Of a stretch of 64,000 bases of DNA, positions 4,641-39,226 are shown in pieces. The stretch covers positions 124,001 through 188,000 of the forward strand of contig NZ_CANMEH010000002.1 in NCBI RefSeq assembly GCF_947496875.1, written 5' to 3'. The stretch's first letter is position 1. Each line of letters opens with the position of its first letter. This DNA comes from an uncultured Paracoccus sp. (GTDB lineage: Bacteria; Pseudomonadota; Alphaproteobacteria; Rhodobacterales; Rhodobacteraceae). The translations under genes and the position numbers were made by a program. The notes under the pieces are model-generated. The model was not told the DNA's origin, did not search any database, and saw only the letters and a list, made by a program, of their open reading frames with translations.

Positions 4641-4666
4641 GGAACCACGCCGCTCGCCGGATTGTT
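4641..4666 (+). promoter_or_regulatory. Candidate EcfG (general stress sigma) promoter
   Basis: GGAAC (4641-4645), 18 bases, then GTT (4664-4666). This fits the alphaproteobacterial EcfG consensus GGAAC-N16/17-CGTT with T in place of the C-G dinucleotide's last base. The GTT ends 56 bases before the ATG of the 24-residue peptide gene, almost the same placement as in the paralogous gene at 36.5 kb. This positional match is what makes me report it. Confidence 0.5.
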
Positions 4667-4722: not shown

Positions 4723-4797
4723 ATGAATTCGATCATCTACATCGTCGGCCTGATTGTTGTCGTGCTGTTCATCCTGTCCATGCTGGGCCTGCGCTGA
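4723..4797 (+). CDS. 24-residue single-span membrane peptide (copy 1)
   Basis: A tiny gene seen only as the tail of a longer ORF in the track (4453-4797). It encodes 24 residues, MNSIIYIVGL followed by VVV-rich hydrophobic sequence and ending LGLR. Almost the whole peptide is a membrane helix with a terminal arginine. The ribosome site AGAGGAAA lies 7 bases upstream. A paralogue at 36534-36608 differs at only a handful of positions (start MSSIIYLVGL, end LGLR), so selection on the protein is likely. It is not in an obvious operon; typA follows after 157 bases. Function is unknown. The candidate EcfG promoter upstream suggests induction in the general stress response. Confidence 0.75.
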   Translation: MNSIIYIVGLIVVVLFILSMLGLR

Positions 4798-4954: not shown

Positions 4955-6775
4955 ATGGACATCCGCAACATCGCCATCATCGCCCATGTGGACCATGGCA
5001 AGACCACGCTCGTGGATCAGCTGCTCAAGCAGTCCGGCAGCTTCCGCGAGAACCAGGCCGTGGCCGAGCGGGCAATGGATTCCAACGACATCGAACGTGA
5101 GCGCGGGATCACGATCCTGGCCAAGGCCACGTCGGTCGAGTGGAAGGGCACCCGCATCAACATCGTCGACACCCCTGGCCACGCCGATTTCGGCGGCGAG
5201 GTGGAGCGGATCCTGTCGATGGTGGATGGCGTCTGCCTGCTCGTCGACGCGGCCGAAGGGCCGATGCCGCAGACCAAGTTCGTGACGTCCAAGGCCCTGG
5301 CACTGGGGCTGAAGCCGATCGTCGTTCTGAACAAGGTGGACAAGCCCGCGGCCGAACCCGACCAGACCCTGAACGAGGTCTTCGACCTGTTTGCCAATCT
5401 GGGTGCAACGGACGAGCAGCTGGATTTCCCGCATGTCTATGCGTCGGGGATCGGCGGCTGGGCCGACGAGGTGCTGGATGGCCCCCGCAAGGACCTGTCG
5501 GCGCTGTTCGACCTGATCCTGCGCCACGTCCCGCCGCCCGCGCAGCTGACTCAGCAGGACCAACCGTTCCGCATGCTGGCCACCACGCTTGGCGCCGACC
5601 CGTTCATCGGCCGGATCCTGACCGGTCGGATCGAGGCCGGTACCGTGCGCGCGGGCGACACGCTGAAGGCGCTGTCGCGTGAAGGCGAACGAATCGAGCA
5701 GTTCCGCGTCTCCAAGGTCCTGGCGTTCCGCGGCCTGACCCAGACCACGATCGACTCGGCCGGGGCCGGCGACATCGTGACGCTGGCGGGGATGAGCAAG
5801 GCGACGGTGGCCGATACGCTGTGCGCCCCCGAGGTCGATGCGCCGTTGCAGGCCAAGCCGATCGATCCGCCCACGATCAGCGTGACCTTCGGCATCAACG
5901 ACAGCCCGCTAGCCGGGCGGGACGGCACCAAGGTCCAGTCCCGGGTCATTCGCGAACGGCTGATGCGCGAAGCGGAAACCAACGTGGCGATCCGGGTCGA
6001 GGACACGCCGGGCGGCGACGCCTTCGTGGTGTCGGGCCGGGGCGAACTGCAGATGGGCGTGCTGATCGAGAACATGCGCCGAGAGGGCTTCGAACTTTCG
6101 ATCAGCCGTCCGCGGGTGATCTTCCGCGAGGAGAATGGCGAAAGGCTCGAGCCGATCGAAGAGGTCATCATCGACGTCGATGACGACTATACCGGTGCCG
6201 TCATCGACAAGCTGACCGGCGCACGCCGCGGTGATCTGGTCGAGATGCGTCCGGCCGGTCACGGCAAGACGCGGCTGGTCGCCCATGTCCCGTCGCGCGG
6301 GCTGATCGGCTATCAGGGCGAGTTCATGACGGATACCCGCGGCAACGGGGTGCTGAACCGCATCTTCCACGACTGGGCCCCCTACAAGGGCCCGATCGCC
6401 GGACGCCGTCAGGGTGTACTGATCTCGATGGAGGATGGCGTGTCCGTCGCCTATGCGCTGTGGAACCTGGAAGAGCGCGGCAAGCTGTTCATCGGCGCGC
6501 AGGAGCAGGTCTATCAGGGCATGATCATCGGCGAGCATTCCCGCGACAACGACCTGGAAGTGAACCCGCTGAAAGGCAAGAAGCTGACCAACGTGCGCGC
6601 CTCGGGCACGGACGAGGCGGTGCGCCTGACCACCCCGGTTAGGATGAGCCTCGAGGAAGCGATCGCCTATATCGACGACGACGAGCTGGTCGAGGTCACG
6701 CCCAAGGCGATCCGGCTGCGCAAGCGGCATCTGGACCCGCATGAGCGCAAGCGACAGGCCCGCGCCGACGCCTGA
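4955..6775 (+). CDS. typA: Translational GTPase TypA/BipA
   Basis: A 606-residue ribosome-associated GTPase, the normal length for TypA/BipA. G1 HVDHGKT is at residues 11-17, then the switch region with ERERGITI, G3 DTPGH and G4 NKVD. Domain II and elongation-factor-like domains follow, and then the family-specific C-terminal domain ([16 protein letters not shown] motif). The ATG at 4955 follows a GGAAGG ribosome site. TypA is a 50S-associated factor that matters at low temperature and under stress. Monocistronic; a perfect hairpin separates it from the convergent purU. Confidence 0.97.
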
Positions 6776-34148: not shown

Positions 34149-36334
<2,186 letters not shown>

Positions 36335-36453
36335 TCAGCCGTCCTGACCCGCCGTGACGGGCAAGGTGGTTGCCTAATACGTCCGCCTGACGGGCGCAAG
36401 ACGTGCGCGAGGAGACAAAGCCGTTGAAAACTCATCCATTTGCCGCCGCAACC

Positions 36454-36478
36454 GGAACTTGCGCCGTGGGCTGACGTT
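36454..36478 (+). promoter_or_regulatory. Candidate EcfG (general stress sigma) promoter, best match
   Basis: GGAAC (36454-36458), exactly 16 bases, CGTT (36475-36478): a full match to the alphaproteobacterial EcfG consensus GGAAC-N16/17-CGTT. It ends 55 bases before the ATG of the 24-residue peptide, near-identical to the spacing in the paralogous locus at 4.6 kb. Confidence 0.65.
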
Positions 36479-36533
36479 CCGTTGCATGGGGACCACCCGA
36501 CGCCGGTCCCACCCATTTCGCAAGGAGTTGGAG

Positions 36534-36608
36534 ATGAGTTCAATCATTTATCTCGTCGGCCTCGTCGTGGTCATCCTGTTCATCCTGTCGTTCCTGGGGC
36601 TGCGCTAA
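36534..36608 (+). CDS. 24-residue single-span membrane peptide (copy 2)
   Basis: Too short for the ORF track by itself. It encodes MSSIIYLVGL, a Val/Ile/Leu-rich helix and a terminal LGLR; the paralogue at 4723-4797 is the same length and differs by conservative changes only. The ribosome site AAGGAG/GGAG lies just before the ATG. The TAA stop overlaps the ATG of the next gene as TAATG, so the peptide and the 371-residue membrane protein are translationally coupled. The best EcfG-like promoter of the window lies upstream. Function unknown; a small regulatory subunit or membrane-stress peptide is plausible. Confidence 0.78.
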   Translation: MSSIIYLVGLVVVILFILSFLGLR

Positions 36609-37723
36609 TGGTGCGGGAAACGGCCGTGACGCCGCCGCGCGGACCAGGGCCCGAGGGCTCGGACCGCAGCTATATCGACTGGGCTGCCATCCTGGCGGGC
36701 GCCGCCATCGCCGCCGGCAGTTCGGTGGTGTTGACCACCTTTGCGGCAGGGCTGGGGCTTGGCGCCATCTCGGCCGATCCGACCGAGGGCATCAGCGGCT
36801 TCGGCCTGGTTCTGACCGCCCTCTTCACGGCCATCTCGATGGTCGCGGTCTACATGCTTGGCGGCTACATCGCCGGCCGCATGCGCAAGCGGGTCGATGC
36901 GGCCGACAAGGATGAGATCACCGCCCGCGACGGCATCCACGGGCTGGTCGTCTGGGCGTTGGGCATGCTGGTCGGCGGCATGCTGGCCATGAACGCCGTC
37001 GGCAGCGGCGCCCGCGCCGTGGGTTCGGCAGCGGGCACGGCCGTCGAGGCGGCGGGGTCCGCCGTCGGCGGCGTCGCGCAGGGCGCCGGGCAACTGGCCG
37101 GTGGCGCGATCTCGGGCGTCGGCCAGATGGTCGGCGGTGCGGCATCGGGGGCCGGTCAGCTGGCCGCCGGCGCAACCGAGAATGCGGGCGAGTTGAGCGA
37201 CATGCTGCCCGAAGGCATGCAGGCCAATCCGCTCGACTATCTCACCGACGGATTGCTGCGGCAGGACGAACCCGGCGCCGGCTATTCCGAGGCGGCGCTG
37301 CGCCGCGAGGTGTCGGGCATCATCATGACGCTGGTGCGCACGGGCGAGATCAGCGAGGCGGACCAGCAGTATCTGCGCTCCGCCGTCGCCGCGCGGACCG
37401 GTCTGTCCGAGGCCGAGGTGAACCAGCGCGTCCAGCAGGCAATCGCGCAGGCCCGGCAGATCCGCCAGGAGGCAGAGCAGCGGCTGGAAGAAGCCGAGCA
37501 GGCGCTGCAGCAGGCCCGCCAGGAAGCCGAGGCCGCGGTCGCGAACGCCAAGGAGGAGGCCATCCAGGCAGCCGAGAACACCCGCCAGGCCGGCGTGCTG
37601 ACCGCCTTCCTTCTCGCGGCCTCGTCGCTGCTGGCCGCGGTCGCCGCCTATATCGGCGCCGTTCGCGGTGGGCGTCACCGCGACGAAAACAAGCTGTGGG
37701 GCGGTCTGCGCTATCACCGCTGA
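36608..37723 (+). CDS. Membrane protein with 11-residue repeats and coiled coil
   Basis: A 371-residue protein of unknown function. Three N-terminal hydrophobic segments (about residues 25-50, 63-88 and 110-132) are followed by five consecutive 11-residue units at 139-193 (GSAVGGVAQGA, GQLAGGAISGV, GQMVGGAASGA and relatives). An acidic region follows, then a Gln/Glu/Ala-rich coiled coil (about 275-335) and a last membrane helix (about 337-358). The 11-mers would form an amphipathic helix of the LEA/apolipoprotein kind lying on a membrane. ATG at 36608 overlaps the stop of the 24-residue peptide. The track start at 36440 is too early. Terminated by a strong hairpin. Confidence 0.8.
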   Translation: MVRETAVTPPRGPGPEGSDRSYIDWAAILAGAAIAAGSSVVLTTFAAGLGLGAISADPTEGISGFGLVLTALFTAISMVAVYMLGGYIAGRMRKRVDAADKDEITARDGIHGLVVWALGMLVGGMLAMNAVGSGARAVGSAAGTAVEAAGSAVGGVAQGAGQLAGGAISGVGQMVGGAASGAGQLAAGATENAGELSDMLPEGMQANPLDYLTDGLLRQDEPGAGYSEAALRREVSGIIMTLVRTGEISEADQQYLRSAVAARTGLSEAEVNQRVQQAIAQARQIRQEAEQRLEEAEQALQQARQEAEAAVANAKEEAIQAAENTRQAGVLTAFLLAASSLLAAVAAYIGAVRGGRHRDENKLWGGLRYHR

Positions 37724-37742
37724 ACCACATGAGACGCCAGAG

Positions 37743-37772
37743 AGACCCGCCACCCACGGCGGGTCTTTTTTG
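37743..37772 (+). terminator. Rho-independent terminator
   Basis: AGACCCGCC-N6-GGCGGGTCT followed by TTTTT, 20 bases after the stop of the 11-mer repeat protein gene. One of the clearest intrinsic terminators in the window. Confidence 0.9.
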
Positions 37773-37816
37773 TGTCCGATCTTTGAAATGCCCGCCTCGC
37801 AACCCAGATCAGGGGC

Positions 37817-39226
37817 ATGACAGCACCTCGGTTCGACAACAGCTATGCCCGACTCGGTTCCGGGTTCTTTTCCCGCACCGCGCCGACGCCGGTGCCCCAG
37901 CCGGAGTTGATCGCGCTCAATCGCGACCTCGCCCTTCGCCTCGGACTGGACGCCGACTGGCTGTCCGGACCCGATGGCGTGGCGATGCTGGCCGGCAACG
38001 CCCTGCCCGACGGGGCGGAACCCATAGCCCAGGCCTATGCCGGACATCAGTTCGGCGGGCTGTCGCCGCAACTGGGCGACGGTCGCGCGGTGCTGCTGGG
38101 CGAAGTCGTGGCGCCGGACGGCGCACGGTTCGACGTGCAGCTGAAAGGGTCCGGGCCGACCCCGTTTTCACGCCGGGGCGATGGCCGGGCATGGCTGGGC
38201 CCGGTGCTGCGCGAATATCTCGTCAGCGAGTTCATGGCCGCAATGGGCGTGCCCACCACGCGAGCCCTGGCCGCCGTGACCACTGGCGAGCCGGTGTGGC
38301 GGGAGACCGCCCTGCCCGGCGCCGTCCTGACCCGCGTGGCGTCAAGCCATGTGCGGGTCGGCACGTTCGAGTTCTTCGCGATCCGCGGGGATACCGACCG
38401 GCTGCGGGCACTGACCGAGCACGTGATCGCGCGGCACTACCCGGACGCGGGCGACGCGCTGGGGATGCTCAGGGGCGTGGTGGCGCGCCAGGCCGAGACG
38501 GTGGCACAGTGGATGGCCCTGGGGTTCATCCACGGCGTGATGAACACCGACAACATGGCCGTGTCGGGGGAAACCATCGACTATGGCCCCTGCGCCTTCA
38601 TGGACGCCTATCATCCCGAGACGGTGTTTTCGTCGATCGACCGGGGCGGGCGCTATGCCTGGGCGGAACAGCCCCGGGTGGCGGTCTGGAACCTTGCGCA
38701 GCTGGCCAGCTGCCTCATTCCGCTAATGGGTGAGCAGGAAAGCGCGATCAGGGACGCGACCGAGGTCGTGCATGGATTTCCGGGCCTCTACCAGGCGGCC
38801 TGGCTGCGCCGTTTCGGGGACAAGCTCGGGATTGCCGATGCGACCGAGGGCGATCGCCCGCTGATCGAACGGCTGCTCGATCTCATGGCCGCGCAGCAGG
38901 CCGATTTCACCCGGGTGTTCCACGGGCTTGCCGCGGATACGGCCGCGGCCGAGTTCAGCGATCCGGCGCCGTTCCGCGACTGGCAGGCGGACTGGCGCGC
39001 CCGCAAGCCCGATCTGGATCTGGCTGCACGGACGAACCCGGTCCGGATCCCGCGCAATCACCGCATCCAGCAGGCGATCGACGCGGGTCTGACCGGGGAT
39101 TTCGCCCTGTTCCACCGGCTGGCGCTCGCCTGGACTGCCCCGTTCGACACCCGCGCGGAATGGGAAGACTTGGCCGCGGCGCCCGCCCCGGGCGAGGAGG
39201 TTCGATTGACCTTCTGCGGTACCTGA
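37817..39226 (+). CDS. selO: Protein adenylyltransferase SelO (YdiU/UPF0061)
   Basis: A 469-residue pseudokinase-fold enzyme that transfers AMP to Ser, Thr and Tyr of target proteins and is linked to redox stress. Family motifs: [43 protein letters not shown], the HGVMNTDNM catalytic loop and [11 protein letters not shown]. The last residues are FCGT, with a cysteine at 467 at the place where eukaryotic SelO carries selenocysteine. No selenocysteine codon is present. Single gene between the terminator above and the EEP-family gene 40 bases downstream. Confidence 0.94.

Follow-up and report, generated by a model that had tools for sequence, protein, structure and literature searches.

A conserved 24-residue peptide gene beside the gene of a four-helix membrane protein in Paracoccus: a putative two-gene unit of the general stress response

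The locus described here raises the question of whether a reading frame of 24 codons, placed between a candidate stress promoter and the gene of a large membrane protein, encodes a working partner of that protein or stands there for another reason. It lies in a stretch of 64,000 nucleotides from an uncultured Paracoccus sp. (contig NZ_CANMEH010000002.1), referred to below as the window. A sequence-only reading had proposed that the peptide, here called pep1, may be a subunit or regulator of the 371-residue protein encoded next to it.

Layout of the locus and its putative promoter

The order in the sequence is EcfG-type promoter, 24-residue ORF and 371-residue ORF, and every element named in the earlier reading was found in its place. 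The features of the locus, and of a related copy of the peptide gene elsewhere in the window, are as follows.

36454..36478, + strand: putative EcfG-type promoter, GGAAC (-35, 36454-36458), 16-nt spacer, CGTT (-10, 36475-36478); from the sequence and its conservation upstream of related peptides
36522..36527, + strand: Shine-Dalgarno sequence AAGGAG of pep1; from the sequence
36534..36608, + strand: pep1, predicted 24-residue single-helix membrane peptide, MSSIIYLVGLVVVILFILSFLGLR (ATG at 36534, TAA at 36606-36608); from codon selection and hydropathy
36606..36610, + strand: TAATG, overlap of the peptide stop with the membrane-protein start; from the sequence and its comparison among pairs
36608..37723, + strand: 371-residue membrane protein with four predicted transmembrane helices; from the ORF, hydropathy, AlphaFold and family alignments
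37733..37776, + strand: strong hairpin and terminal T run, likely terminator of the two-gene unit; RNA fold of -30.6 kcal/mol, z -6.9
4641..4666, + strand: putative EcfG-type promoter of the pep1 paralog, GGAAC-N17-TGTT; from the sequence
4723..4797, + strand: solo pep1 paralog, MNSIIYIVGLIVVVLFILSMLGLR, upstream of typA/bipA (4955-6775); 79% identical to pep1 at 36534

The peptide had rightly been called the second of its kind, given the paralog at 4723-4797. A mechanical terminator scan listed no terminator, the hairpin at 37733-37776 included, whereas RNA folding gave a strong hairpin there. With this hairpin and T run behind the 371-residue ORF, the unit appears to run from promoter through peptide and protein to terminator; it is flanked by obgE, on the opposite strand, and selO, both assigned by Pfam.

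The promoter was claimed to match the EcfG consensus fully. It does so, and GGAAC-N16-CGTT equals the consensus published for Rhizobium etli (PMC3892343); the one given for Methylobacterium extorquens is GAAC-N16,17-C/GGTT (PMC4814048). Taken alone, the motif at 36454 is close to chance and non-significant in the window, where 4 matches were counted against 1.6 expected and 11 of 100 shuffles held as many. For the whole genome, the count of 67 was barely above the 50 of a reversed-pattern control. The motif becomes highly significant because it is kept upstream of pep1 across genomes. The strict form, GGAAC-N16/17-CGTT, was present within 250 nt upstream in 61 of 116 pep1 copies (2 for the reversed and 0 for the reverse-complement control), and GGAAC-N16/17-[CG]GTT within 150 nt upstream in 78 of the 116 copies of the genus set (shuffle mean 0.2) and in 26 of 55 distant copies (shuffle mean 0.1). 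The same genome also carries nepR, whose product matches PF18557 above the cut-off, followed by the gene of a 195-residue sigma-70-type ECF factor, and this nepR-ecfG locus itself has GGAAC-N17-TGTT 65 nt upstream of nepR. The conserved motif and the nepR-ecfG locus together support the promoter assignment, and the unit would be transcribed by EcfG.

The peptide gene and the membrane protein

The pattern of substitutions was analysed in 106 aligned 24-codon copies of pep1. Silent changes were found to be free and the amino acids conserved (pS 0.48, pN 0.091, pN/pS 0.19), with 0.15, 0.03 (0.027) and 0.42 differences at codon positions 1, 2 and 3, while the 72 nt on each side could not be aligned, about 70% of the positions being different. 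A Shine-Dalgarno-like motif preceded 104 of the 106 copies. Judged by these data pep1 is a real protein gene under purifying selection on its amino-acid sequence, as had been supposed at the outset; a chance ORF is ruled out by the codon-substitution pattern. The peptide has a hydropathy of 2.97 over 19 residues and is predicted to form a single hydrophobic helix.

Of the 148 genomes in which pep1 was sought, nearly all from the genus Paracoccus, 91 had copies, and profile searches found the family in 59 of 249 genomes of the bacterial family and in 30 of 385 spread over the class Alphaproteobacteria. No CDS was listed over pep1 in the plasmid records inspected, the gene tables of which are incomplete. 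Many genomes have solo pep1 copies, which in Paracoccus are mostly found upstream of typA; this arrangement is common in the genus and is that of the paralog in the window, with a motif of its own. In several genomes two pep1 copies stand in tandem. The solo copies point to a role, or a partner, outside the pair, so that pep1 is not an obligate subunit.

The stop codon of pep1 overlaps the start of the downstream gene in TAATG, from which a fixed ratio of the two proteins had been predicted. The overlap is present here; among Paracoccus pairs it was counted in 17 of 30, mostly with no Shine-Dalgarno sequence ahead of the membrane-protein gene, and it was also seen on two Brucellaceae plasmids, in the pairs of Pseudochrobactrum and Ochrobactrum. 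It is absent from all 23 distant pairs, whose spacers are 1-50 nt long and whose second gene mostly has a separate Shine-Dalgarno sequence. A fixed ratio would therefore be a local trait, and the prediction does not hold as a general property of the pair. Since TAATG occurs here with no Shine-Dalgarno sequence before the second gene, ribosomes that have finished the peptide are likely to re-initiate on the membrane-protein gene at this locus, and the same is probable for the other Paracoccus pairs built in this way, which together with it make up about half. Such an arrangement would also be expected if the small ORF were a cis-acting leader, so that the act of translating it regulated the next gene through coupling or attenuation and the peptide made had no part in this. 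We regard this as highly improbable, given the strongly conserved amino acids beside freely changing silent sites, the solo copies that have no partner downstream, the spacers and separate Shine-Dalgarno sequences of the distant pairs, and the position of the peptide gene behind its partner in other classes.

The length of pep1, its single hydrophobic helix and its stress promoter also recall TisB, Ibs and Fst, type I toxins which are short hydrophobic helices with stress-linked expression. A stress-induced toxin of this kind, with the membrane protein as immunity factor or not, would differ from them in having a conserved partner gene, and no known antitoxin RNA was found at the locus in an Rfam scan of 36300-37850, which gave one sub-threshold match. 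Type I toxins seldom have a widespread partner gene or evolve slowly by vertical descent, and we consider this explanation improbable.

The 371-residue protein has four hydrophobic segments, predicted as transmembrane helices at about 25-53, 64-90, 108-133 and 327-354, with a Gly/Ala-rich and coiled-coil segment between the third and the fourth. The AlphaFold model (mean pLDDT 79.7) has helices at 25-53, 64-91 and 101-141 and a long one at 268-359 ending in the fourth hydrophobic segment, with residues 141-193 disordered or unsure. The charges suggest that both termini are inside and that the Gly/Ala-rich and coiled-coil part of 190 residues is outside. Family alignments show invariant or nearly invariant motifs after the second helix (GG-Y-x-A-G-R-x-R), at the third (R-D-G/T-x-H-G) and after the fourth (G-G-x-x-R-D). 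No match above the curated cut-offs was obtained in Pfam and NCBIfam, where only sub-threshold coiled-coil matches (ATP-synt_B) appeared, or above the cut-off in PHROGs, and neither a PDB sequence search nor a PDB fold search with the AlphaFold model gave a relative. By these results the protein would belong to a new family of four-helix membrane proteins.

Conservation of the pair among Proteobacteria

Absence of the pair as a unit from other genomes had been named beforehand as the finding that would speak against a link between the two genes. The pair was in fact found to be kept. In Paracoccus, pep1 stands directly upstream at 24 of 29 loci of membrane-protein homologs and is lost at 5 of 29. 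Across Alphaproteobacteria, strong homologs of the membrane protein (E<=1e-50; n=29 from 385 genomes) have a single-helix peptide of about 25 residues directly beside them in 28 of 29 cases. Here pep1 is directly upstream at 18, a different peptide, pep2, is directly upstream at 9 and directly downstream at 1, and neither is present at the remaining one. The best named relatives are Paracoccus species; named examples in the class are those of Paracoccus marinus, P. lichenicola, P. subflavus, Pseudochrobactrum and Ochrobactrum. Among named records, the pep1 pair also occurs in Mesorhizobium terrae and Bradyrhizobium japonicum, and pep2 stands upstream of the membrane-protein gene in Phyllobacterium and Ensifer (Ensifer adhaerens).

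Some copies are found in unusual surroundings. The Pseudochrobactrum and Ochrobactrum pairs are plasmid-borne, with transposases and stress genes (Ku, DUF892, DNA glycosylase) in the neighbourhood, and a transfer between families is possible for them. One membrane-protein gene, a decaying copy, is broken by a stop and has no peptide upstream. Members of the membrane family were also met on IMG/VR contigs filed as viral, with pep1 upstream in the two cases checked; they are probably cargo, or host sequence next to proviruses.

The second peptide, pep2, with the consensus MGRGILLWLLGIPIPIIILLALFWR, is unrelated to pep1 in sequence and is found either solo or beside the same membrane family; its promoters in Alphaproteobacteria are of EcfG type. 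In that class GGAAC-N16/17-[CG]GTT was present at 8 of 30 pep2 loci against a shuffle mean of 0.06, and by this measure pep2 is stress-linked there too. The pep2 branch reaches Beta- and Gammaproteobacteria, and in it the peptide often follows the membrane-protein gene. Among the best loci of a phylum-wide search, 19 were examined and pep2 lay beside the gene in all 19, upstream in 10 and downstream in 9; among named records it is upstream in Pandoraea (beta) and downstream in Pantoea (gamma) and in Paraburkholderia and Variovorax (beta). Mapped on the membrane-protein tree, the type of peptide keeps to the branches, with 3 label changes against 11.1 in shuffles, the number of pep1/pep2 switches being unsure because the deep branches are weak.

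The adjacency survives both a flipped gene order and a change of peptide family, which argues for a functional link between the products, and its retention across much of Proteobacteria suggests that peptide and membrane protein work together. From this distribution the pair is seen to be an old unit. Both genes could, however, be members of the general stress regulon that stand together for co-expression only, with a peptide that by itself acts on membranes or stabilises them under stress. The solo pep1 and pep2 copies with EcfG-type promoters would fit such an explanation, as would the tandem pep1 copies. So would peptide-less relatives of the membrane protein with a retained EcfG-like promoter, met among the Paracoccus homologs and in a third, more distant branch of the membrane family, which is mostly without a peptide and often has GGAAC-N16/17-NGTT 44-122 nt upstream (nine loci); with the EcfG-like motif in this branch as well, the whole membrane family looks stress-regulated. 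Peptide-less homologs and solo peptides together mean that each partner can do without the other in some genomes. Co-expression would nevertheless leave unexplained why the peptide adjoins 28 of the 29 strong homologs, why it remains next to the gene even where the two have changed places, and why its type tracks the branch of the partner. Moreover, EcfG is exclusive to Alphaproteobacteria according to PMC3892343 and is not expected elsewhere, so a shared EcfG promoter cannot explain the adjacency in the beta and gamma examples. We therefore think co-expression as the sole reason rather unlikely.

Proposed action of the pair and comparison with known systems

A stress-induced two-gene unit, in which pep1 is a dedicated small membrane subunit or a regulator of the four-helix protein, is the probable explanation of the locus. 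EcfG, released by the PhyR/NepR partner switch, would read the promoter at 36454 and yield a single mRNA encoding the peptide first and the membrane protein second. The peptide of 24 residues would insert into the inner membrane as one helix, most likely pack against the conserved N-terminal helices of the four-helix protein, and stabilise or tune it under stress. From the genes we thus infer the transcription by EcfG, the insertion, the physical contact, the effect on the partner and the role of the complex in the cell. In its widest form the proposal would be a Proteobacteria-wide two-component membrane system, in which a four-helix protein requires a single-helix partner of about 25 residues, two unrelated micropeptide families replace each other between branches, and the general stress response takes control in Alphaproteobacteria; for this extension we see the chances as evenly balanced.

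Annotation misses micropeptides of such size, so little of what they contribute to the general stress response has been mapped. In at least three classes, conserved adjacency ties two micropeptide families to a single uncharacterised family of membrane proteins, and "hypothetical proteins" of the stress regulon become a defined two-part unit, open to testing in culturable Paracoccus, Bradyrhizobium or Ensifer. Replacement of pep1 by pep2 beside the same kind of partner would offer a clean case for the study of small-subunit evolution.

The locus resembles the PhyR-NepR-EcfG regulon in its GGAAC-N16/17-CGTT promoter and in the nepR-ecfG genes of the same genome, which have the same type of promoter; the pep1 and membrane-protein families were not found described in the EcfG regulon papers searched. 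A literature search of openly available main texts gave no description of pep1, pep2 or the partner family, and neither peptide motif is mentioned in the body of PMC10903887, a survey of small membrane proteins.

A dedicated subunit might be expected never to occur without its partner; pep1 does occur alone, mostly upstream of typA in Paracoccus. The known small membrane subunits are not all strict in this respect either. The closest parallels are CydX of cytochrome bd, KdpF and AcrZ, short single-helix proteins whose genes often adjoin that of a large membrane protein or share its regulation (PMC4325964, PMC7267776). Like them, pep1 is a short predicted single helix encoded beside a large membrane protein, and it would act as they do in outline. 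However, pep1 and pep2 are shorter (24-25 residues) and have no recognised sequence similarity to these subunits, and their partner belongs to an uncharacterised family and is not an oxidase, an ATPase or a pump. A further difference is that two sequence-unrelated peptides, pep1 and pep2, serve two branches of one partner family.
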